Origin: Bacteroidetes bacterium ADurb.Bin012
Lineage (GTDB): Bacteria; Bacteroidota; Bacteroidia; Bacteroidales; TTA-H9
Length of the DNA stretch: 64,000 nucleotides
Assembly (NCBI GenBank): GCA_002071415.1
Contig: MWFC01000001.1
Coordinates: 124,001 to 188,000 of the forward strand
Direction: 5' to 3'
Below, in pieces: positions 21,626-32,058 of the stretch; position 1 is the stretch's first letter; each line of letters opens with the position of its first letter. The notes under the pieces were generated by a model. That model saw only the letters and a program-made list of their open reading frames with translations, made no database searches and was not told the origin of the DNA. The translations under genes were made by a program, and so were the position numbers.

Positions 21626-24600
21626 TTATTTTAGGGCAGTAATGAGGATTTTTTGAATGGAGAGGTTGGCTTGTTCGGGTACCAGGCTCAACCATGTGGT
21701 AGTGGCTGCATTCCATCCCGTAGTTGAGTTCAATGGTGCAACAAAGGTATTGGTAACAGGGTTTTTTAATAATTTAATAACCACGCCTCCTGTTTTGGTT
21801 TTTCCGTGGCCATAGTTTACGACGATTTTGGCGTCTTCTTGTAAAGGATGGGAGAGGCTGACTACTATAAAAGCTTCGCTTTTGGCAGGATATGTTTTTG
21901 CATCAAGTGAAAATTGAACCATTTGATTGGTTTCGAGATTTAATGGTTCGTCTGTAATTTGCGTCAGAGTATCTGAGAGTATCAGTTTCAGAGTTCGCTG
22001 CAAGCCTTCGATGGCTTCCTGACGGTGAGGTTCGAGATGCAGGGCAATCAAATAATTATCGAAAGCTACGCCAAGATCGTTTTTATTTTCGGCAATTTTC
22101 CCTTCAGCAAGCGCTTTTTCATAAGTAATTCCTTCCACTTCGCGTGGAGTAATGAGTAAGGCATTGAGTTCGGCAATTTTTTTCGAGGGGTAGTCTTCGG
22201 TTGGTTTTAAGTTTCGAGCCGTTAGATAATGTTTGAGAGCATCATTATAAAGTCTGACGTCGAAACAACTATCGGCCGATTTTATGGCGTGTTGAAAACG
22301 AGCTTCTAAAAGGGCATTGTCGCTAAGAATTTTTTGTATTTCTTTTATCTTTTGTCCGGGTAATGCCTCAGAAGGATTAACTTCTGCCGCTTTCCTGTAA
22401 AAGCTAATAGCTTCTTCAAGTGCGCCTTGCCGGTAAAGGCTATCGGCTTGTCGAAAATTGTTTTTATATGCAAGTTGTCGTTGTTCTATGGCTTGTATTT
22501 CTTCATCAATTTGTTTGAGCCTGTTTGCAGCATATTCCTGATCGGGCATCACCTGTGTGGCTTGCATGAAAAACTGACGTGCTTCATATAATTTTCCTGC
22601 CTTGTATGAAGCATCAGCTTTGGTAATAAGATTGTGATACTGTTCGGTTCGAGTAGCAATTTCCTGAATTATATTCCGAAGTTCTGTAATTTTTTGCTTT
22701 GGATATTCTTCATTCGGTTTCAATTGAACAGCATTTTCATAAGCAAGGACTGCTTGGGAATAATTTTTTAGTTTATCGAGACTATCAGCGGTTTTTATCC
22801 ATCGAGTATAATCCTGTTCTCGCTTCTCGATGGTTTTTATTTTTGTTTCAATGGCTAAGATTTGATCCAGTGGATAAGTCTCATTCTGCTTGATTTGACT
22901 GGCTTCCTTATAATATGTTAAAGCCGTTATCAAATTATCTGATTTATATAATGAATCAGCTTTGGCAATGGCTTGCTGGTATTTGAGTTCGTTAGCCTTC
23001 ATCTGTGCAATAATTCTATGAAGAGCTTCTATTCTATCTTTCACTTCTTCATTGTTCGGCTTGATAGATAAGGCATTCTGATACATCTCGAGAGCATTTT
23101 GATAATCTCCTGCGTTTTCGAGATTCTTTGCATTAGCCTTGGCAAGAGTAAAGGCATCGTTTTCGGCCTTTTCTTTTTCGGTCTTTAAAATCTTAATCTG
23201 TTCGATACGTGATTGTGGATAAGGATTTCCGGGCATAAGCTGGCTTGCTTGCTGATAAAAACCGAGCGCCTTATCGAGATCCTGAGCATCAAAGGCCTCA
23301 TTTCCCCTTGCTACGTAATCATTGAAAGACTTTTCTTTTTCTGCCTTCGCCAGAATGAGTGAATCCATTTGTTGAACCTTCTGACTGGGATAAACTTCAT
23401 TTGGATTGATAGCTTGTGCTTTTTGATATTCTAATTTAGCTTGCTGCCATTTCCCTTCTTTAGCCAATTGATTGGCTTGGACAATAGTTTGCCTGTAATT
23501 GGCCTCAATAGCAGCTTTTTGTTCGAGTTGCAGTTGTATTTCTTCGACTTTCTGTTGAGGATATTTTTCGTCGGGATAAATTTTCAGCGCATTTTGATAT
23601 GCTGCCAAGGCATTTTTCAAATCTCCCGTTGCTAAGTATTGGTCGGCAAGTTTGATGTTAGATTCATAAGTTTCGCGTTTTTGCCGCAAATTGCCAAGAA
23701 TATTTTCAATTTCGGAAATACGCGCGCTGGCTGCTTTATCATTAGGTTGAATTTTCAATACCTGCCGATAGTAAACTAAAGCCGAGTCATACTGTTTGGA
23801 TTCAAAGAAATTTTGGGCTTCTGAAAGCGTCTGACTGTAAAGTTTCAGGCGATTTTGCTCTACTATTAATAGGGAATCGCTCTGGGCTTTTTTTCTTGAA
23901 GCCAAAAGATCGTTTGTTTTTAATTGTATAGCTTCTGCATAAGCTTTCGAAGCATTCTCATATTGCTTTTCGCTTAAATATCTATCGCCTCGAGCTAAAG
24001 TTTGAGCATACTTTGCCTCTTTCAAGGCAATATCCTGACGAATTCGAGATGATTCCTCTATTTTTTGAGAGGCAAGAGCATGATTGGGCTTAAGTGCTAA
24101 AGCTTCGCGATACAGTTTCTCGGCTTGTTCGTAATCTTTTTGATTTTCTGCTTCACCAGCCCTGGCTAAAAGCATTTCGAATTGTTCATCAATCGATTTT
24201 TGAACTAATAAAGTGCTGTCGATGGAATGTATTCTATCGAGGGCTCTTTTGTCATTGGGAAAGATTTCGAGTGCAGATTGAAGAACTTCTTTTGCCTTGG
24301 CAAATTGATTATTTTTCAATAATCTATCTGCTTGAACCAACTTTTCGTCAAAGGCGTTCCGAAAGGCTTGCTGTTGCTTGAATAAATCTTCGATTTCTTG
24401 AATTTTTGTCTTTGGATAAGTTTCGTCGGGTTTCAACTTAATAGCACCTTGGTAAAGAACAAGGGCATCGTTATACATCTTATTGGCAAGCAAGTTGTCA
24501 GCTTTTTGTATGGCTTGTTGATAGTTTGCCTGAAGCTGTCGGAAGTTTGTTTCGAGTTCGTCGATTTGTGCAAGTTTAGCCCTTACTTGCGCATTATTAG

Positions 24601-25969
24601 GTTGAAGTTCGGAAGCTTGCTGAAGGAAGCTTCTAGCTTGAGAATAATTTTTGGCGACAATATATTGATCGGCTTGTTTCAAAAGTTCTTCGAAATGAAT
24701 GGCAATTTGTTTTTGCTCGTTGAATTTTTGTGTGAGTATTGCGATTTGTTCTTGGGGATAGGTGGAGTCGGGTAGGAGTTTAGAAGCCGATTGGTAAGTT
24801 TGAATGGCTTTGGTGAATTCTCCATTTTTTTCGAGCTCGGCTGCTTGATGAATGAGTTGTTCATACGATCTACGATTTTTTACCAACTGATCAATCCGTG
24901 GCTGCAATGATTTGATTTTCGAAGAACCATAACTGTCGTTCGGTTTGAGTAGAAGGGCATCGGAAAATAATTGATACGCTTTTTCTATTTCGCCCGATTT
25001 CAAATAATTATCTCCTTCGTTGATCAATGATTTATAGCGCTGCTGCCTCGATGATTCATCGGCATACAAAGCCTGGATTTCGCGAATACGTGTTTTAGGG
25101 TAAGTTTCATCGGGATTGATGTCAATGGCCTCTTTATAGGCTTTCATAGCTTCATCGAACTTTCCTGCTGCGAAGGCTGCATCTCCTTTGGCTTTGGCTT
25201 TCTGATACTGTGAGCTGATTTCTGCCTGATAAGTCAGGATGTCATTAATTTCATCGATTTTTTGTTGGGCTTCAACACCTTCGGGTAAAATTTGATTAGC
25301 TTCCGTAAATAGTTGGAGTGCTTGTTCATATTTTTGAAGTTGATATGCCTGATTGGCTTCAGCAAGCTTTTGTTGATAAAGTATGCGAGCTTGTTTCTCT
25401 TGCTGCTGACTTTGTGCGAGCCCCTGAGCAGCCTGTTCATCGTCCCCCTTTATCTGCAACGCACTGCTAAATGCTTTCGAAGCATGTTGATATCGTTTGG
25501 CTTTCAGAGCATCATTCCCTTCAAGCATGGCTTCATTGTATCGAGCAATTTGTTTCTGCTGGTTTTCTATCTTTTTCTTTAATTCATTCAAACGTGAATG
25601 TAAATGAGGGTCGATAAATGAAAGATGTTCCAAGTGCCCCACCAGTTTATTGGCTGAGGCGTAATCCTTATTGCGAAATGCAAGTTCAGCTTCATAAAGC
25701 AGAGTCTGAGCTTCCTTATTAAATTGCTCGGCCGATGATAAGGCCTTTTCCAGCTCGATAATACGATTTTGAACTTTTGTATCACCAGGTTTCAACTTAT
25801 CTGCATACCTATACGCCGATAAAGCCGATCGAAGATCATTTACTCTGTAAACACTGTCGGCAAATTTCACGGCTTTTTCGAAAGGGGAGAGGTTTTGCTG
25901 AGCATTGGCGGTAATATAAAATAATGACGAATAGGTGATTATTAAAACGAGGCGAAGGGTATTTCTCAT
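21626..25969 (-). CDS. giant secreted or periplasmic TPR-like repeat protein
   Basis: A 1447-residue protein. The longest frame starts at 26041, but a TAATTTTG box at 26024-26031 lies downstream of that point; ATG 25969 gives a clean signal peptide (MRNTLRLVLIITYSSLF..ANA). From about residue 30 to 1320 there are about 23 tandem units of about 56 residues. Each has a helix like YQQAIQKADNLLANKMYNDAL, a second helix like VLYQGAIKLKPDETYP, and a third like KTKIQEIEDLF. The P-[DN]-E-x-Y-P turn recurs in more than half of the units. The last 130 or so residues form a distinct beta-rich domain (around MVQFSLDAKTYPAKSEAFIV). The role is unknown; it looks like a long periplasmic scaffold or spacer. 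No partner gene is adjacent. Confidence 0.82.
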   Translation of the reverse strand: MRNTLRLVLIITYSSLFYITANAQQNLSPFEKAVKFADSVYRVNDLRSALSAYRYADKLKPGDTKVQNRIIELEKALSSAEQFNKEAQTLLYEAELAFRNKDYASANKLVGHLEHLSFIDPHLHSRLNELKKKIENQQKQIARYNEAMLEGNDALKAKRYQHASKAFSSALQIKGDDEQAAQGLAQSQQQEKQARILYQQKLAEANQAYQLQKYEQALQLFTEANQILPEGVEAQQKIDEINDILTYQAEISSQYQKAKAKGDAAFAAGKFDEAMKAYKEAIDINPDETYPKTRIREIQALYADESSRQQRYKSLINEGDNYLKSGEIEKAYQLFSDALLLKPNDSYGSSKIKSLQPRIDQLVKNRRSYEQLIHQAAELEKNGEFTKAIQTYQSASKLLPDSTYPQEQIAILTQKFNEQKQIAIHFEELLKQADQYIVAKNYSQARSFLQQASELQPNNAQVRAKLAQIDELETNFRQLQANYQQAIQKADNLLANKMYNDALVLYQGAIKLKPDETYPKTKIQEIEDLFKQQQAFRNAFDEKLVQADRLLKNNQFAKAKEVLQSALEIFPNDKRALDRIHSIDSTLLVQKSIDEQFEMLLARAGEAENQKDYEQAEKLYREALALKPNHALASQKIEESSRIRQDIALKEAKYAQTLARGDRYLSEKQYENASKAYAEAIQLKTNDLLASRKKAQSDSLLIVEQNRLKLYSQTLSEAQNFFESKQYDSALVYYRQVLKIQPNDKAASARISEIENILGNLRQKRETYESNIKLADQYLATGDLKNALAAYQNALKIYPDEKYPQQKVEEIQLQLEQKAAIEANYRQTIVQANQLAKEGKWQQAKLEYQKAQAINPNEVYPSQKVQQMDSLILAKAEKEKSFNDYVARGNEAFDAQDLDKALGFYQQASQLMPGNPYPQSRIEQIKILKTEKEKAENDAFTLAKANAKNLENAGDYQNALEMYQNALSIKPNNEEVKDRIEALHRIIAQMKANELKYQQAIAKADSLYKSDNLITALTYYKEASQIKQNETYPLDQILAIETKIKTIEKREQDYTRWIKTADSLDKLKNYSQAVLAYENAVQLKPNEEYPKQKITELRNIIQEIATRTEQYHNLITKADASYKAGKLYEARQFFMQATQVMPDQEYAANRLKQIDEEIQAIEQRQLAYKNNFRQADSLYRQGALEEAISFYRKAAEVNPSEALPGQKIKEIQKILSDNALLEARFQHAIKSADSCFDVRLYNDALKHYLTARNLKPTEDYPSKKIAELNALLITPREVEGITYEKALAEGKIAENKNDLGVAFDNYLIALHLEPHRQEAIEGLQRTLKLILSDTLTQITDEPLNLETNQMVQFSLDAKTYPAKSEAFIVVSLSHPLQEDAKIVVNYGHGKTKTGGVVIKLLKNPVTNTFVAPLNSTTGWNAATTTWLSLVPEQANLSIQKILITALK

Positions 25970-26023
25970 AAACAGACAAAAATTCTCAATCAGGAACACA
26001 AAATATATAATACGTTTTTCTGG

Positions 26024-26031
26024 CAAAATTA
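26024..26031 (-). promoter_or_regulatory. -7 box TAATTTTG of the giant repeat protein
   Basis: TAATTTTG on the reverse strand matches TAnnTTTG. It puts the transcript start near 26019, leaving a leader of about 50 bases before the ATG at 25969. Confidence 0.55.
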
Positions 26032-26098
26032 GTATATTCATGATGGATTCTGAAGACCTATTTTGTTTTAACCTTTTTCAATAGGATAAAAGGTGATA

Positions 26099-26511: not shown

Positions 26512-26991
26512 ATGATCGAGCGAATAAGACAGATCATGAGCAAAAAAGGAATGACACCATCACAATTTGCCGATGCTATTGGGATACAACGTTCGGGGAT
26601 GTCGCATATACTTTCGGGACGCAATAAACCAAGTCTCGATTTTGTGATGAAAGTCCTGAACCGGTTCCCTGACATCGATCCAACTTGGCTTTTAAAGGGC
26701 GATACTATCGCTAAACCTAAACAGGACATAAAACCCAGGGAATTGACTTTGTTTTCTGATGAAGAAAATGAATTTGATAAGGATGAGACGCAAAATAACG
26801 AACGGCCCAAAATTACCAAACCCTCGGAGTCGAAACCTATATCAGTAAAAGTGGATGAACCTGTTGCTTATTCTCCCACTCCCAAGCAAAGGAGCGAAGA
26901 AGTCATGGGTAAAAATTCACCTCATCGTATTTCAAAAGTCATTTTGCTATACGAAGATGGTTTCTATGAAATAATGAGCAATCCTCAATAA
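26512..26991 (+). CDS. XRE-family helix-turn-helix regulator
   Basis: A 159-residue DNA-binding protein. The N-terminal 65 residues form a Cro/C1-type HTH: IERIRQIMSKKGMTPSQFAD, AIGIQRSGMSHILSGRNKPS and LDFVMKVLNRFPDIDPTWLL. The rest is polar and low in complexity (about 70-130, rich in Lys, Glu, Pro and Ser), ending with a short conserved-looking segment HRISKVILLYEDGFYEIMSNPQ. Proteins of this kind (HTH plus disordered tail) are widespread in Bacteroidota and their targets are mostly unknown. Repeated inverted repeats upstream, one on its own promoter, suggest self-regulation. Its last 7 bases overlap the convergent ndk gene. Confidence 0.88.
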   Translation: MIERIRQIMSKKGMTPSQFADAIGIQRSGMSHILSGRNKPSLDFVMKVLNRFPDIDPTWLLKGDTIAKPKQDIKPRELTLFSDEENEFDKDETQNNERPKITKPSESKPISVKVDEPVAYSPTPKQRSEEVMGKNSPHRISKVILLYEDGFYEIMSNPQ

Positions 26992-27407
26992 AACCTTTCG
27001 AGCGATGAAAAGAAGAAATTTGCCTCACGCTGGGCATTTTCGTCAGAATCGCTGCCATGAACTGCATTTTGCTGAATATCTGTGCCATACGATGCTCTTA
27101 TAGTTCCTTGAGTAGCCTTGGCAGGATCGGTATTACCAATCAAAGTTCTAAAATCATCAACGGCATTTTCTTTTTCTAAAATGGCGGCAATAATGGGTGC
27201 CGATGAGATAAATCTTACCAAACCCTCGTAAAAAGGTCTTTCTTTGTGAATCTCATAAAATTTTCCGGCTTCTTCGCGGCTCAACCAGATCATTTTCATT
27301 GCTATAATCTTAAACCCATGTTCAATTATAAATTGAATAATGTTTCCTGTATAATTCCTCGAAATAGCACAGGGCTTAATCATGCTAAAAGTAATGTTTC
27401 CCGACAT
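26985..27407 (-). CDS. ndk: nucleoside diphosphate kinase
   Basis: Transfers the gamma-phosphate of ATP to other nucleoside diphosphates through a phospho-histidine. I start at ATG 27407 (MSGNITFSMIKPCAISRN), giving 140 residues, because a TATGTTTG box covers 27440-27447, over the start of the longer frame. The active site His117 lies in NAVHGSDSDENAQRE, and the nucleotide-binding segment is RTLIGNTDPAKATQGTIRASYG (about 87-108). Length and motifs are normal for the family. Divergent from the DHH operon and convergent with the XRE gene. Confidence 0.95.
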   Translation of the reverse strand: MSGNITFSMIKPCAISRNYTGNIIQFIIEHGFKIIAMKMIWLSREEAGKFYEIHKERPFYEGLVRFISSAPIIAAILEKENAVDDFRTLIGNTDPAKATQGTIRASYGTDIQQNAVHGSDSDENAQREANFFFSSLERFY

Positions 27408-27439
27408 GATAAAATCGATTTTAAAGTAGTTTGAATGAG

Positions 27440-27447
27440 CAAACATA
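27440..27447 (-). promoter_or_regulatory. -7 box TATGTTTG of ndk
   Basis: TATGTTTG on the reverse strand matches TAnnTTTG and gives a leader of about 28 bases to ATG 27407. Confidence 0.6.
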
Positions 27448-27514: not shown

Positions 27515-28552
27515 ATGATAGAAAAAAATAACTTTTACCTTAGAGAAGCAAAGAAAATTGAGGATTTACTTCAAACTCATCAAAATATCCTCATTATTAG
27601 CCATCCATATCCCGATGGGGATTCGATAGGAGCTTCTCTTGCATTATATATGGTTTTTAAAAAGCTTGGACATGAAGTAAATATTATCATTCCTAACGTT
27701 CATCCTCCTTTTTTGGGCTGGCTACCAGCAGTTCAAAACATTATAATTTACGAACAGCACATACAAGCAGCCCGGAAACTTATTCAGGAAACCCGGTTGG
27801 TTTTTTGTGTTGATTTTAATAATCTCAAACGTCTGAATCAGCTTAGTAGCCTTTTCAATGAGGATAATCATAAGTATGTTCTCATCGATCATCATCCTCA
27901 ACCCGACAATTATTTCGATGTAAAATTTCATACCATTCATGTGAGTTCAACCTCTGAACTTGTATATGAACTTTTGCTCATGATGGGTTTGGAAGATAGC
28001 ATTGATTTAGATGTTGCATTAAATCTCTACGTTGGTATAATGACCGACACGGGTTCTTTCAGTTATTCTTGTAATTATCCACGCACTTACGAAATTACTG
28101 CCCGTTTGATCGAAAAGGGTATAGATGCCCAAAAGACGCACAATCTTATTTATGATACTTTTTCGGAGCTTCGCATGCGATTACTCGGGTATTTGCTGCT
28201 TAACCGCATGATTGTGATGCAAGAGTATAAAACCGCCTATATGTGGCTTAGCCTCGAGGACCAGAAGACTTTTCAATTTCAACCAGGTGACGCCGAAGGT
28301 TTTGTGAATTATGCACTTGCAATCGAAGGCATTAGATTGGCGGCATTTTTTACCGAAAAACCCGATATGGTTCGTGTGAGTTTTCGCTCGAAAGGCAGCT
28401 TTTCGGTAAACGAACTGGCAAGGAAATATTTTGATGGAGGTGGGCATCTCAACGCAGCCGGTGCCAATAGTTACAAAACACTTCAAGAAACCCTTCGGTA
28501 TTTCGAAGCGGTGGTGAAGGAGAATATCATTGCTTTATGCCAGAAAGATTAA
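27515..28552 (+). CDS. DHH/DHHA1 phosphoesterase (NrnA-like oligoribonuclease / pAp phosphatase)
   Basis: A 345-residue manganese-dependent phosphoesterase. Metal ligands follow the family plan: His30, Asp34 and Asp36 in ISHPYPDGDSIGAS, Asp100 in FCVDFNNL, and the DHH motif at 125-127 in VLIDHHPQPDN. A further Asp lies in VGIMTDTGSFSYS. The C-terminal DHHA1 domain has the substrate-binding GGGHLNAAGA loop. Members of this size degrade short RNA oligonucleotides (2-5 nt) and 3'-phosphoadenosine 5'-phosphate; c-di-AMP or pGpG breakdown is also known in relatives. Its last 16 bases overlap the first FKBP gene, so it heads a five-gene operon. Confidence 0.9.
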   Translation: MIEKNNFYLREAKKIEDLLQTHQNILIISHPYPDGDSIGASLALYMVFKKLGHEVNIIIPNVHPPFLGWLPAVQNIIIYEQHIQAARKLIQETRLVFCVDFNNLKRLNQLSSLFNEDNHKYVLIDHHPQPDNYFDVKFHTIHVSSTSELVYELLLMMGLEDSIDLDVALNLYVGIMTDTGSFSYSCNYPRTYEITARLIEKGIDAQKTHNLIYDTFSELRMRLLGYLLLNRMIVMQEYKTAYMWLSLEDQKTFQFQPGDAEGFVNYALAIEGIRLAAFFTEKPDMVRVSFRSKGSFSVNELARKYFDGGGHLNAAGANSYKTLQETLRYFEAVVKENIIALCQKD

Positions 28553-29061
28553 CTCTGCTGATTATTATTGGTTTAGCTATAATATCCTGTCATTCTCCCG
28601 AAAAGGGAAAAAGCAACCAAATTCTCGAACCAGATTTATATGATACATTTGTAGCTTATAATCAGAGAATGACAGAATATGAGAATCAGCTTATCGAGGA
28701 CTATATGGCAAGATATCATTTAAGTATGAATCAAACTGGCACAGGGCTTCGTTACAAGATTCTAAGGGAAGGAGAAGGCCCAAGGATTAGAGAAGGGCAG
28801 GAAATTGCTCTTGATTATAAAATGTATTTGCTCACAGGCGATCTGGTTCGAGAATCAAAGCCAGGAAATCCTTTACGATTTACCGTAGGCAAATCCGATA
28901 TAATTTCTGGCCTTGATGAGGCCGTTAGATTGTTTCGAAAAGGCACAATTGCAAAAATTATTATACCTTCGCACTTGGCTTACGGAGCTACGGGTGATCA
29001 GCAATATATCCCTCCACGAGCCACTTTAGTGCTCGATATTAAAATTGTTGAACCTTATTAA
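28537..29061 (+). CDS. FKBP-type peptidyl-prolyl isomerase lipoprotein, GldI-like
   Basis: A 174-residue lipoprotein: signal peptide with lipobox IISC (Cys at about residue 18), a helical linker (about 30-65) and one FKBP domain (about 68-174). The domain keeps the fold-defining GEGPRIREGQ, SGLDEAVRLFRKGTIAKIIIPSHLAYGA and the closing ATLVLDIKIVE strand. The Phe-Asp pair of the active site is replaced (GDLVRES instead of GT-x-FDSS), so catalysis may be weak. Size, lipobox and position after a DHH gene resemble GldI, the gliding-associated isomerase of Bacteroidota; this is an inference. Predicted to act on folding of envelope or T9SS proteins. Confidence 0.82.
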   Translation: MPERLTLLIIIGLAIISCHSPEKGKSNQILEPDLYDTFVAYNQRMTEYENQLIEDYMARYHLSMNQTGTGLRYKILREGEGPRIREGQEIALDYKMYLLTGDLVRESKPGNPLRFTVGKSDIISGLDEAVRLFRKGTIAKIIIPSHLAYGATGDQQYIPPRATLVLDIKIVEPY

Positions 29062-29072
29062 CACATTACATC

Positions 29073-29933
29073 ATGAAAACTAAAATTACCTATTTTTTTG
29101 CTCTTACCTTGATAGCTGTTACCTTGATTTCGTGTAGCAAATATCCTGGTTACAAGAAAACCGATTCAGGTTTGTATTACAAGTTTTACGTCAAGTCGGG
29201 CGATACTGCCAAACCTAAGGTTAACGACATCTTGAAACTTTATATGTCGTATGGTACTAAAGACAGTCTTTTGATGGATGGCAAAGAGGAATTTCTTCTG
29301 CAGTTAACCAACCCACAATTCAAGGGTGATATCAATGAAGCCCTTGCCATGATGTCGAAAGGCGATAGTGCAAGTTTCATCATGCCTGCCGATTCATTTT
29401 TCAAGAAGATAGTACATGTTCCGTTGCCTGACTTTATCGACAGCACAGAAATGCTTTACTTTAATGTAAAAATGATCGATTTTTTCAGTCAGGAAGAATT
29501 CATCAAGCGTATGAATGAGGAAAATGCGCTCAAAGAACAGAAGGAGCTAAGCGATCTGGAAAGTTATCTTAGCGCTAATAATATTACGGTGCAACCTACC
29601 GAGAGCGGGCTTATCTACATCGAGATCGTTAAGGGAACTGGTCCACAAGCAACCCAAGGGAAGAAGGCCAAGGTTCATTATACAGGAACCTTGCTCGATG
29701 GAACCAAGTTCGATTCATCATACGATCATCCTGATAAACAACCTTTAGAATTTATAATAGGTGAACAGCGTATTATTCCTGGTTTCGAAGAAGGTGTAAG
29801 TTTGATGAAAAAAGGAGGCAAAGCCAAATTGATTATGCCTTCCAAGCTTGCTTATGGCAGCCGTCCGGCTGGGCCTAGTATTCCTGCATTCTCTACTCTG
29901 GTATTTGAGGTTGAACTCATTGATGTTCAATAA
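29073..29933 (+). CDS. FKBP lipoprotein with one degenerate and one canonical domain
   Basis: A 286-residue lipoprotein (lipobox LISC, Cys22). The N-terminal half (about 27-135: YPGYKKTDSGLYYKFY..., KGDINEALAMMSKGDSASFI) is a degenerate FKBP unit without the catalytic FD pair. A charged helical linker (about 140-180) joins it to a C-terminal canonical FKBP domain (about 185-286) with VHYTGTLLDGTKFDSSYDH, IPGFEEGVSLMKKGGKAKLI, SKLAYGSRPAGPSIPAFSTL and the closing FEVELIDV. The N-terminal unit is clearly a paralogue of the one in the next gene. Second FKBP gene of the operon, 11 bases after the first. Confidence 0.88.
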   Translation: MKTKITYFFALTLIAVTLISCSKYPGYKKTDSGLYYKFYVKSGDTAKPKVNDILKLYMSYGTKDSLLMDGKEEFLLQLTNPQFKGDINEALAMMSKGDSASFIMPADSFFKKIVHVPLPDFIDSTEMLYFNVKMIDFFSQEEFIKRMNEENALKEQKELSDLESYLSANNITVQPTESGLIYIEIVKGTGPQATQGKKAKVHYTGTLLDGTKFDSSYDHPDKQPLEFIIGEQRIIPGFEEGVSLMKKGGKAKLIMPSKLAYGSRPAGPSIPAFSTLVFEVELIDVQ

Positions 29934-29945
29934 TTTTGAACGTTT

Positions 29946-31259
29946 TTGCATGATATGAGCATTCGCCATTTACGTTTCATTTTATTTATTTTTGTCATCG
30001 GCTGCATCGTTTATGGGTGCAGCCGATTTAGTGGTTATAAGAAAACCAGCGACGGTCTATATTACAAGTTTTACCGACAAAATGAAGGCCCGCATCCAGA
30101 TACGAGTAATATCGTACAGATAAATCTAAGTTATCGCTACGGGGATTCCGTATTATTTAGCAGCAACATTTTAAGAGAACCCATGAATATGATGGTAAAT
30201 CCTCCTGAATTTCGGGGCGACCTCAATCAGGCTTTAATGATGATGAGCCCAGGTGATAGTGCTTCATTCCTTATACGAGCCGATTCGTTCTTCTTTTGCA
30301 CTCTGAAATACAATCGTCTGCCAAAGATAAGCACCCCCGACTCGTATGTTACACTCGAAGTAGGCATGACAAAGATGTGGACAAAACAAGAGCAACGCCA
30401 AAAGGAACAAGAATGGATCATAGCTCGAAAAAATTCCGAAAAGGAGGAAATTCAGAGATTTATTAAGGAAATTCGATTCGAAGGAGATACTACTCCCGAG
30501 GGTTTGTATTTTAAAATTACTCGAAAGGGTGAAGGGCCAACTCCTAAACCCGGTGATCAGGTTACATTGAAATTCAGTGTAAATTTGATCGATGGAACCA
30601 AATTGTACTCGTCGTGGGATAAAGGAATACCAATGACCATTGAATTTGGGAAGAAATTCGATACTGAGGGAATCGACATTGCCTTATCGAGAATGAATAA
30701 AGGTTCTGTCGCTCGATTGATAATTCCGAGCAAATTAGCATTTGGAGAAAAAGGTCGCCCTCCTTTCATACCCCCTTATTCTCCTTTGCTTTATGATGTC
30801 GAAATAGTTGACATAAAATCAAAAATCGATAAACAAAAAACCAATCAGGAGCAAGTGGAAAAACTTCGTCTGAGTGAGCAGAAACGAATAGAAGAATATT
30901 TGGTTAAGAACAATTTGAAAGTGAAGCCACAGGCCAATGGACTTTATTTTATAGAGTTGAAAAAAGGGCAGGGGGTTCCTCCCAAAACCAATCAAACGGT
31001 TCGGGTGCATTATACAGGCTGGTTACTGGATGGAACGAAGTTCGATTCTTCATATGATAAAGGAAAACCTTTCGAATTTATTTTAGGGCGTGGAAATGTT
31101 ATCGAGGGCTGGGGGAAGGCCGTTGCTCAAATGCAAGCCGGCTCAAAGGTAAAAATTATTTTGCCGAGCCATCTTGCTTATGGTGAACGTGGAGCACCTC
31201 CTAAAATTCCTCCTTTTGCGCCTTTAGTCTTCGAAATTGAATTGCTCGATTATGAATAA
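29946..31259 (+). CDS. three-domain FKBP-type prolyl isomerase lipoprotein
   Basis: A 437-residue lipoprotein. The start may instead be the ATG at 29955; either gives a signal segment with lipobox VYGC. Three FKBP-like units follow. Unit 1 (about 27-135, SGYKKTSDGLYYKFYRQNEG... PGDSASFLIRADSFF) is degenerate and parallels the N-terminal unit of the previous gene. Unit 2 (about 180-285) has fold residues but reads GTKLYSSW where FDSS is expected. Unit 3 (about 325-437) is canonical: VHYTGWLLDGTKFDSSYDKG, VIEGWGKAVAQMQAGSKVKI, SHLAYGERGAPPKIPPFAPL. Charged helices link the units. Its TAA overlaps the ATG region of the next gene. Confidence 0.88.
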   Translation: MHDMSIRHLRFILFIFVIGCIVYGCSRFSGYKKTSDGLYYKFYRQNEGPHPDTSNIVQINLSYRYGDSVLFSSNILREPMNMMVNPPEFRGDLNQALMMMSPGDSASFLIRADSFFFCTLKYNRLPKISTPDSYVTLEVGMTKMWTKQEQRQKEQEWIIARKNSEKEEIQRFIKEIRFEGDTTPEGLYFKITRKGEGPTPKPGDQVTLKFSVNLIDGTKLYSSWDKGIPMTIEFGKKFDTEGIDIALSRMNKGSVARLIIPSKLAFGEKGRPPFIPPYSPLLYDVEIVDIKSKIDKQKTNQEQVEKLRLSEQKRIEEYLVKNNLKVKPQANGLYFIELKKGQGVPPKTNQTVRVHYTGWLLDGTKFDSSYDKGKPFEFILGRGNVIEGWGKAVAQMQAGSKVKIILPSHLAYGERGAPPKIPPFAPLVFEIELLDYE

Positions 31260-32058
31260 AAAAATATCCTCCATTGTATTAAACCTGGCTTGCATTGCTT
31301 TTTTGGGCTCATGCAGCAGCACAAAAAAAACAAATGCTCCCTCCGATATTTTTCAAACCCCTTCAGGAGTGGAGATTCAAATTATACAGCATGGCAAGGG
31401 AAAGAGAGCAGAAAATGGAAATATCGTCCGATTGCATTACACTGGTAAACTTACCAATGGAACTATTTTCGACAGCAGCATTCAACGCGATAAACCGATT
31501 CAAATTACCTTGGGCAAGGGTCAAATTATCAAAGGATGGGAGGAAGCCTTGCCATATTTGCACGAAGGAGATAAGGCGATCCTTTCTGTTCCTCCCGAAC
31601 TGGCTTATGGGAATCAGGATTTAGGGATAATCCCTCCAAATTCTACTTTAATTTTTGAAATCGACTTGCTCGAAGTGGTCCAGTCTACGCCTCCTGAGCC
31701 TTTTGTTACTGCGGGATTGGATACTTTGGTGCTGGATTCAGGATTGAAGATCATCATCGTAAAAAAAGGCAATGGGCCGAAGGCGAGTTTCGGTCGTCAG
31801 GTCGTTGCACATTATACTGGTTATTTACCCAATGGAAAGGTATTCGATAGCAGTTATCTTCATGGTCAACCCATTACTTTTCATCCAGGAAGCGGTCAAG
31901 TTATCAAAGGTTGGGATGAAGCTTTTCCTTTACTGCCCAAGGGAACAAAAGCACGATTAATCATCCCTCCTTATCTGGCCTATGGTGATCATGACACTGG
32001 ACCTATTCCAGCCGGTTCGACTCTGGTCTTCGATGTAGAAGTAGTGGATATAAAATAG
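31252..32058 (+). CDS. two-domain FKBP-type prolyl isomerase lipoprotein
   Basis: A 268-residue lipoprotein. I choose ATG 31252 (MNKKISSIVLNLACIAFLGSC) because it gives a compact signal peptide with lipobox LGSC and the usual short overlap with the preceding TAA; the frame extends to 31237. Both FKBP domains are canonical. Domain 1 (about 40-135) has LHYTGKLTNGTIFDSSIQRD, IIKGWEEALPYLHEGDKAIL and PPELAYGNQDLGIIPPNSTL. Domain 2 (about 160-268) has AHYTGYLPNGKVFDSSYLHG, VIKGWDEAFPLLPKGTKARL and PPYLAYGDHDTGPIPAGSTL. Both keep Trp in the GW position at the pocket floor. Last gene of the DHH-FKBP operon. Confidence 0.9.
   Translation: MNKKISSIVLNLACIAFLGSCSSTKKTNAPSDIFQTPSGVEIQIIQHGKGKRAENGNIVRLHYTGKLTNGTIFDSSIQRDKPIQITLGKGQIIKGWEEALPYLHEGDKAILSVPPELAYGNQDLGIIPPNSTLIFEIDLLEVVQSTPPEPFVTAGLDTLVLDSGLKIIIVKKGNGPKASFGRQVVAHYTGYLPNGKVFDSSYLHGQPITFHPGSGQVIKGWDEAFPLLPKGTKARLIIPPYLAYGDHDTGPIPAGSTLVFDVEVVDIK

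Follow-up and report, generated by a model that had tools for sequence, protein, structure and literature searches.

The extracellular dome of the β-barrel assembly machinery (BAM) is unexplained; BamK was identified as one of its parts in 2025. GldI has been known since 2004 as a predicted isomerase required for gliding. Here both proteins are compared with an array of four FKBP-fold lipoprotein genes in a stretch of 64,000 nucleotides from Bacteroidetes bacterium ADurb.Bin012 (contig MWFC01000001.1, positions 124,001 to 188,000, referred to as the window; own genome G000), which lies directly behind a gene for an NrnA-like DHH phosphoesterase. The array is an ordinary instance of a widespread locus that, as far as the literature search shows, is undescribed, and its place behind NrnA (the slot) is occupied by GldI in Flavobacteriaceae and by BamK in part of the Bacteroidales. 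In the mostly open literature searched, no publication was found on an nrnA-FKBP linkage in Bacteroidetes, on DUF4827 (the domain of BamK), on gldI beside a phosphoesterase gene in Flavobacterium, on GldI as an isomerase connected with Bam, or joining BamK with GldI, and the neighbourhood of gldI and the phosphoesterase gene may well be in print already.

GldI is reported to be needed for gliding and for the stability of GldJ and GldK (PMC9127263), and it has been listed with proteins required for gliding and biofilm formation (PMC8444969). In Bacteroides thetaiotaomicron, BamJ and BamK are described as surface lipoproteins with a peptidyl-prolyl isomerase (PPI) fold forming a half-dome over BAM (PMC12578637), and the BAM of Flavobacterium johnsoniae contains BamM with a PPI-fold domain, the accessory subunits differing by species (PMC12611786). 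The SprA translocon also carries a PPI, deletion of which is described as having no notable effect (PMC10994853 and PMC9127263).

Anatomy of the array behind NrnA

The four open reading frames (ORFs) are all on the forward strand, directly 3' of the DHH ORF (27515–28552, forward), whose product matches PF01368 and PF02272 (DHH and DHHA1) above cut-off and the NrnA model NF053633 with 117 bits, under the cut-off of 350. The overlaps or gaps between neighbouring genes are no larger than about 23 bp: gene 1 (28537–29061) overlaps the 3' end of the DHH gene, gene 4 (31237–32058) overlaps that of gene 3 (29946–31259), and the remaining gaps, on either side of gene 2 (29073–29933), are 11 and 12 bp. 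Because of these overlaps and short gaps, the NrnA-like gene and genes 1–4 are likely to form one operon, with the phosphoesterase gene at its head. Alternative ATG starts at 29955 in gene 3 and at 31252 in gene 4 may be the true ones, and a scan of the locus for promoters and terminators gave no excess above shuffled sequences.

All four proteins (174, 286, 437 and 273 aa) carry a lipobox (IISC, LISC, VYGC and LGSC, in gene order) and comprise one, two, three and two FKBP units, eight in total. The initial annotation, made from the sequence alone, had proposed this 1-2-3-2 set of tandem FKBP lipoproteins in one operon behind a DHH phosphoesterase; the set is confirmed by lipoboxes, Pfam, profile searches, hhalign and AlphaFold2, and its place by the ORF coordinates. 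Six of the eight units pass Pfam FKBP_C (PF00254, gathering score 21.1 bits), and the N-terminal units (N-units) of genes 2 and 3 (29139–29513 and 30024–30407) are not matched singly by this model; the former also has no match among PDB sequences below E 0.3. Both N-units are nevertheless true FKBP relatives, though diverged. An iterated profile built from the FKBP units of this study, in which related units had already been taken in, scores 66.7 bits with the N-unit of gene 2 and 55.0 bits with that of gene 3, and hhalign of N-unit against C-terminal unit (C-unit) profiles gives a probability of 99, compared with less than 1 for the unrelated NrnA and nucleoside diphosphate kinase (NDK) controls. 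In the AlphaFold2 model of gene 3 (mean predicted local distance difference test, pLDDT, 89), the N-unit shows the FKBP order of strands and helix, and the strand order is equal in all three units; the predicted template modelling score of 0.49 leaves the arrangement of the units unsure. The two N-units have in common the motif GYKKTxxGLYYKFY, and their proposed paralogy is supported but old, each grouping with its counterpart in relatives.

When the units are aligned on human FKBP12, Phe36-Asp37 is found in exactly four of the eight, the very ones that had been named beforehand: the last unit of gene 2 (29577–29930), the last of gene 3 (30909–31256) and both of gene 4 (31342–31680 and 31714–32055), each within an FDSS motif. 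The pair is lost in the unit of gene 1 (28714–29055), where VR stands at positions 36–37, in the N-units of genes 2 (LM) and 3 (LF) and in the middle unit of gene 3 (30471–30818; LY). Gene 1, for which the AlphaFold2 model has a pLDDT of 91, is a single non-catalytic unit, gene 2 combines a non-catalytic and a catalytic one, gene 3 has two non-catalytic units before its catalytic one, and gene 4 has two catalytic units.

Age of the array and a slot shared with GldI and BamK

The spread of the locus was followed in 197 genomes of the class and 149 of the order, where NrnA was found in 192 and 142 respectively. Among 60 class loci picked to spread over the listed families, FKBP genes lie directly behind NrnA in 45 and BamK in 4, together 49 of the 60. 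One scan of 80 named loci, 77 of them judgeable, gave FKBP in 49, GldI in 20, BamK in 3 and none in 5. In the order, 140 of the 142 NrnA-bearing genomes were covered: the window's own, the 29 closest to it, another 83, and the 27 in which BamK was hit. An FKBP gene is directly behind NrnA in 92 of the 142 (1 own, 23 and 68), or in 92 of 109 once genomes with a BamK hit or without a judgeable NrnA locus are set aside, which makes this linkage the rule; four contigs end too soon for the slot to be judged. NrnA without FKBP or BamK behind it was seen in L044, L217, L228, L266 and other loci, with G072, Marinifilum and a Rikenellaceae metagenome-assembled genome (MAG) among their sources, and in L316, from the reduced 1.2 Mb genome G286, which is devoid of SprA, a phosphomutase-like gene directly follows NrnA, with neither FKBP nor BamK.

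The commonest layout of the longer arrays is a single non-catalytic unit, then pairs of a non-catalytic and a catalytic unit, then a gene with two or three mostly catalytic units. Phe-Asp is missing in 30 of 32 first-gene units and in all 51 N-type units, and kept in 60 of 70 C-terminal units. Cys-Tyr replaces it at positions 36–37 in 20 of the 32 first-gene units (32 class loci), a conserved changed pocket from which gene 1 of the window differs (Val-Arg). Within the family of the window, the other two genomes, G216 and G328, show the same 1-2-3-2 gene order and the same Phe-Asp pattern. In a quick tree built on few columns, which covers 118 units of 16 loci and has weak inner forks, N-type units form one supported group (99) and first-gene units another (95), and the window units join same-position units of relatives, so that grouping follows position and not genome. 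Since the clades are position-wise and the pattern is the same within the family, the non-catalytic units are old and retained rather than recent debris. The initial annotation had seen here an expanding family of envelope foldases with catalytic and chaperone-only domains and had offered a domain phylogeny as its check; envelope lipoproteins with both kinds of unit are indeed what the anatomy gives, whereas a recent expansion in this lineage is not supported, being contradicted by the position-wise tree and in disagreement with the constancy of the set within the family.

GldI holds the same slot in Flavobacteriaceae, where all eight proteins tested pass TIGR03516 (including those of Cellulophaga baltica, Maribacter aquimaris and a Flavobacterium MAG). 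TIGR03516 is also the best NCBIfam family for gene 1 (60.2 bits over residues 7–171, the cut-off of 157.6 not being reached) and for eight of eight further first genes (57–98 bits). Like GldI, the product of gene 1 is a lipoprotein encoded directly behind NrnA, with a helix before the FKBP unit bearing a conserved Asn and Ile, and with Phe-Asp lost; the two align by hhalign across 161 mature columns. Unlike GldI, it has no evidence of gliding attached to it, and its identity to the GldI rows is 19–22%. Gene 1 is GldI-like, and in the explanation favored below it would be the counterpart of GldI. It is followed by multi-unit FKBPs, and GldI by larger single-FKBP proteins: these have about 350–410 aa in L091, L098, L205, L206, L219 and other Flavobacteriaceae, and the one tested, that of L091, is a cyclophilin-FKBP fusion (a dual-family isomerase) that occupies the place of the multi-unit genes.

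BamK (NF053690, DUF4827; curated cut-off 120) was found at E 1e-5 in 27 of the 149 order genomes, in seven of them above the curated cut-off. In 25 of the 27, the gene immediately 5' of BamK, in the same orientation and at a gap of -1 to 169 bp, is NrnA; in the remaining two, one BamK is at a contig end and the other has NrnA on another contig. No FKBP gene occurs within about 1 kb behind BamK, nor within about 6 kb in L043, L045, L046 and L047. For the BamK of L046, chain J of the BAM structures 9HIS and 9HJ3 from B. thetaiotaomicron is a match (E 2e-17), and Dysgonomonas hofstadii (L215) likewise has BamK, at 162 bits, in the NrnA slot. A link between FKBP and BamK is suggested by two proteins of the slot, in which a BamK-like N-terminus stands on a recognisable FKBP unit. 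That of L158 (1099–1647, reverse) scores 35.5 bits for the BamK-like N-terminus and, with the FKBP profile, 81 bits for the unit, which has Phe-Asp; that of L318, encoded by the second gene (1542–2075, forward), reaches 62 bits with the BamK profile. After removal of signal peptides, hhalign of BamK scores 96 with the catalytic unit plus helix, 74 with gene 1, 47 with BamJ, 44 with GldI and 16 with the NrnA control, an order that shows BamK to be more similar to the array members than to BamJ. With full-length profiles gene 1 was slightly ahead (88.8 versus 84.0 for C-units); as this lead is reversed once signal peptides are removed, descent of BamK from gene 1 is not claimed, and the claim for BamK and the array is limited to a shared slot and homology. 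BamK is like the array in being a lipoprotein of FKBP-like fold behind NrnA with profile similarity to its units, and unlike it in being a single, strongly diverged unit.

On the other side of NrnA, and divergent from it, the window has an NDK gene (26985–27446, reverse; PF00334, 176 bits), and many loci of both the class and the named set conserve NDK as a neighbour in this orientation. Further away, an ORF of 1471 aa (21626–26041, reverse) has many similar repeats resembling tetratricopeptide repeats (NP-D/N-E-YP-x-x-KI-x-EI) and a distinct C-terminal part.

Possible functions of the array

Anatomy, age, shared slot and homology are observed, and the explanation we favor, to which we give an even chance, is that the array encodes old NrnA-linked lipoproteins which sit in the outer membrane and aid the folding and assembly of surface proteins and of other proteins of that membrane. 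As the slot is shared with BamK and GldI, assembly of such proteins would be the common theme. The catalytic units (the last of genes 2 and 3 and both of gene 4) would isomerise prolines, and the four others (the single unit of gene 1, both N-units and the middle one of gene 3) would most likely bind clients or a partner machine; the mix of active and inactive tandem pockets would fit a foldase/holdase that grips and isomerises its clients, possibly in contact with BAM. BamK, a single FKBP-fold lipoprotein that has diverged strongly, would have taken the place of the array in many Bacteroidales families, and both GldI and BamK would be specialised or replacing forms of an old foldase set.

Several points weigh against this explanation. 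Nothing FKBP-like is behind NrnA in 17 order genomes (2 among the nearest and 15 among the others). BamK could have entered the slot from elsewhere, and the sequences appear silent on which array unit would have given rise to it. GldI is unmentioned in the main text on the BAM subunits of F. johnsoniae (PMC12611786). Finally, a surface-lipoprotein signal, taken as two acidic residues among the six after the lipid Cys (PMC12578637), is present in none of the four window proteins; elsewhere it occurs in 9 of 28 BamK relatives, 4 of 5 BamJ and 16 of 52 other lipoprotein-like ORFs (the background), and arrays are background-like (first genes 34 of 111, multi-unit genes 50 of 169). The lack of an acidic stretch in the array speaks for a periplasmic face, although, with only 9 of 28 BamK relatives carrying it, the rule cannot exclude a surface location.

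The same lack of an export signature would suit general periplasmic foldases, that is, FkpA/Mip-like isomerase-chaperones on the outer membrane serving many clients without a dedicated machine, for which the shared slot would reflect common descent only. The catalytic units do resemble the FkpA and FklB models (NF008150, NF008602) and FkpA/Mip structures, being likewise FKBP units behind a helix. However, the array differs from FkpA/Mip by its tandem and non-catalytic units, and the FkpA-type N-terminal domain FKBP_N (PF01346) is under its cut-off in gene 2 (18.6 bits versus 22) and without a match in genes 1, 3 and 4. Moreover, the non-catalytic units are kept as separate old clades, and the conserved Cys-Tyr pocket of the first genes suggests specific binding, so that we regard purely general foldases as somewhat unlikely.

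The array might instead supply several PPI subunits to a BAM dome on the cell surface, in the role that BamJ and BamK have in Bacteroides; its sharing of the slot with BamK, mutually exclusive as far as read, would fit. In addition, the window's own genome has no BamK above cut-off anywhere (genes 2–4 reach 11 to 20 bits with the BamK model, under its 120), and its sole FKBP_C protein outside the array is a short one on contig C14, so that any BamJ/BamK-like role would fall to the array. Genes 3 and 4 even exceed the BamJ cut-off (NF053689, 100) with 142 and 143 bits for the whole proteins, but this is because unit scores add up, the best single unit giving 87, and an identity with BamJ was rejected; automatic naming of multi-unit FKBPs by this model is therefore unsafe and would misname both genes. 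BamJ in the order genomes read shares an FKBP_C unit with the array, but is single-unit, located elsewhere in the genome and mostly has acidic residues after the Cys. The absence of the export signature from the window proteins and their multi-unit size, unlike BamJ and BamK, also speak against dome subunits. The BamH_bt model has no match in this genome, though no control matched it either, and the 50 fold matches listed for gene 1 do not include the BamK and BamJ chains of 9HIS and 9HJ3, which is uninformative either way. Overall, dome subunits are unlikely.

A role in the type IX secretion system (T9SS) or gliding, which the initial annotation had put forward as a possibility, would have the array mature T9SS lipoproteins (GldJ, GldK/PorK) or cargo. 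Gene 1 would then act as GldI, and one of the catalytic units would be the PPI bound to SprA. Part of this link stands: gene 1 is GldI-like by slot and sequence, GldI occupies the slot in Flavobacteriaceae, and its reported requirement for gliding and for GldJ and GldK stability (PMC9127263) would fit. SprA is present in the window's genome, where only the short protein on C14 could otherwise provide an FKBP_C unit, and the SprA-bound PPI (6h3i chain B, Fjoh_4997) is matched over 128 residues, with Z 19.2–19.5, by the models of genes 1 and 3. This PPI, also made of helix and FKBP, has the catalytic array units as its nearest kin among the sets compared, and window units score 14–73 bits with its two f55 orthologues, but it is single-unit and lies away from the NrnA locus in G064 and G099, and its deletion is reported to have had no notable effect (PMC9127263). 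SprA is nearly universal (140 of 149 order and 191 of 197 class genomes), which makes co-occurrence with it uninformative. On the other hand, slot FKBPs occur without SprA in G204 and G320 (99–100% complete, their FKBPs atypical and weak-scoring), in G039 (a single contig) and in the less complete G321 and G058, and they count against a role in T9SS only. The nine SprA-less order genomes have FKBP in the slot in three cases, BamK in two, an empty slot in three and no NrnA in one, and conversely BamK is in the slot while SprA is retained in 25 of 27 BamK genomes. T9SS specificity of the array is not supported, and a dedicated T9SS or gliding role is distinctly doubtful. Recent duplication with decaying redundant copies, under which the half of the units lacking Phe-Asp would be debris, is highly improbable, since three genomes of the family agree in their pattern and the clades follow position in other families as well.

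Implications for the Bacteroidota envelope

What most deserves to be followed is that BamK, GldI and the array share one slot: this places GldI and BamK, together with the FKBP lipoprotein array as the commonest form, in a shared frame. A stronger version, in which all three represent, in different lineages, a single ancestral factor for outer-membrane assembly that works with the Bacteroidota BAM, is speculative and rather unlikely at present. If true, gldI mutants would have their gliding and T9SS defects because lipoproteins and barrels of the outer membrane fail to assemble, and Bacteroidia with an array would own a BAM foldase module of several tandem units, some catalytic and others binding only.

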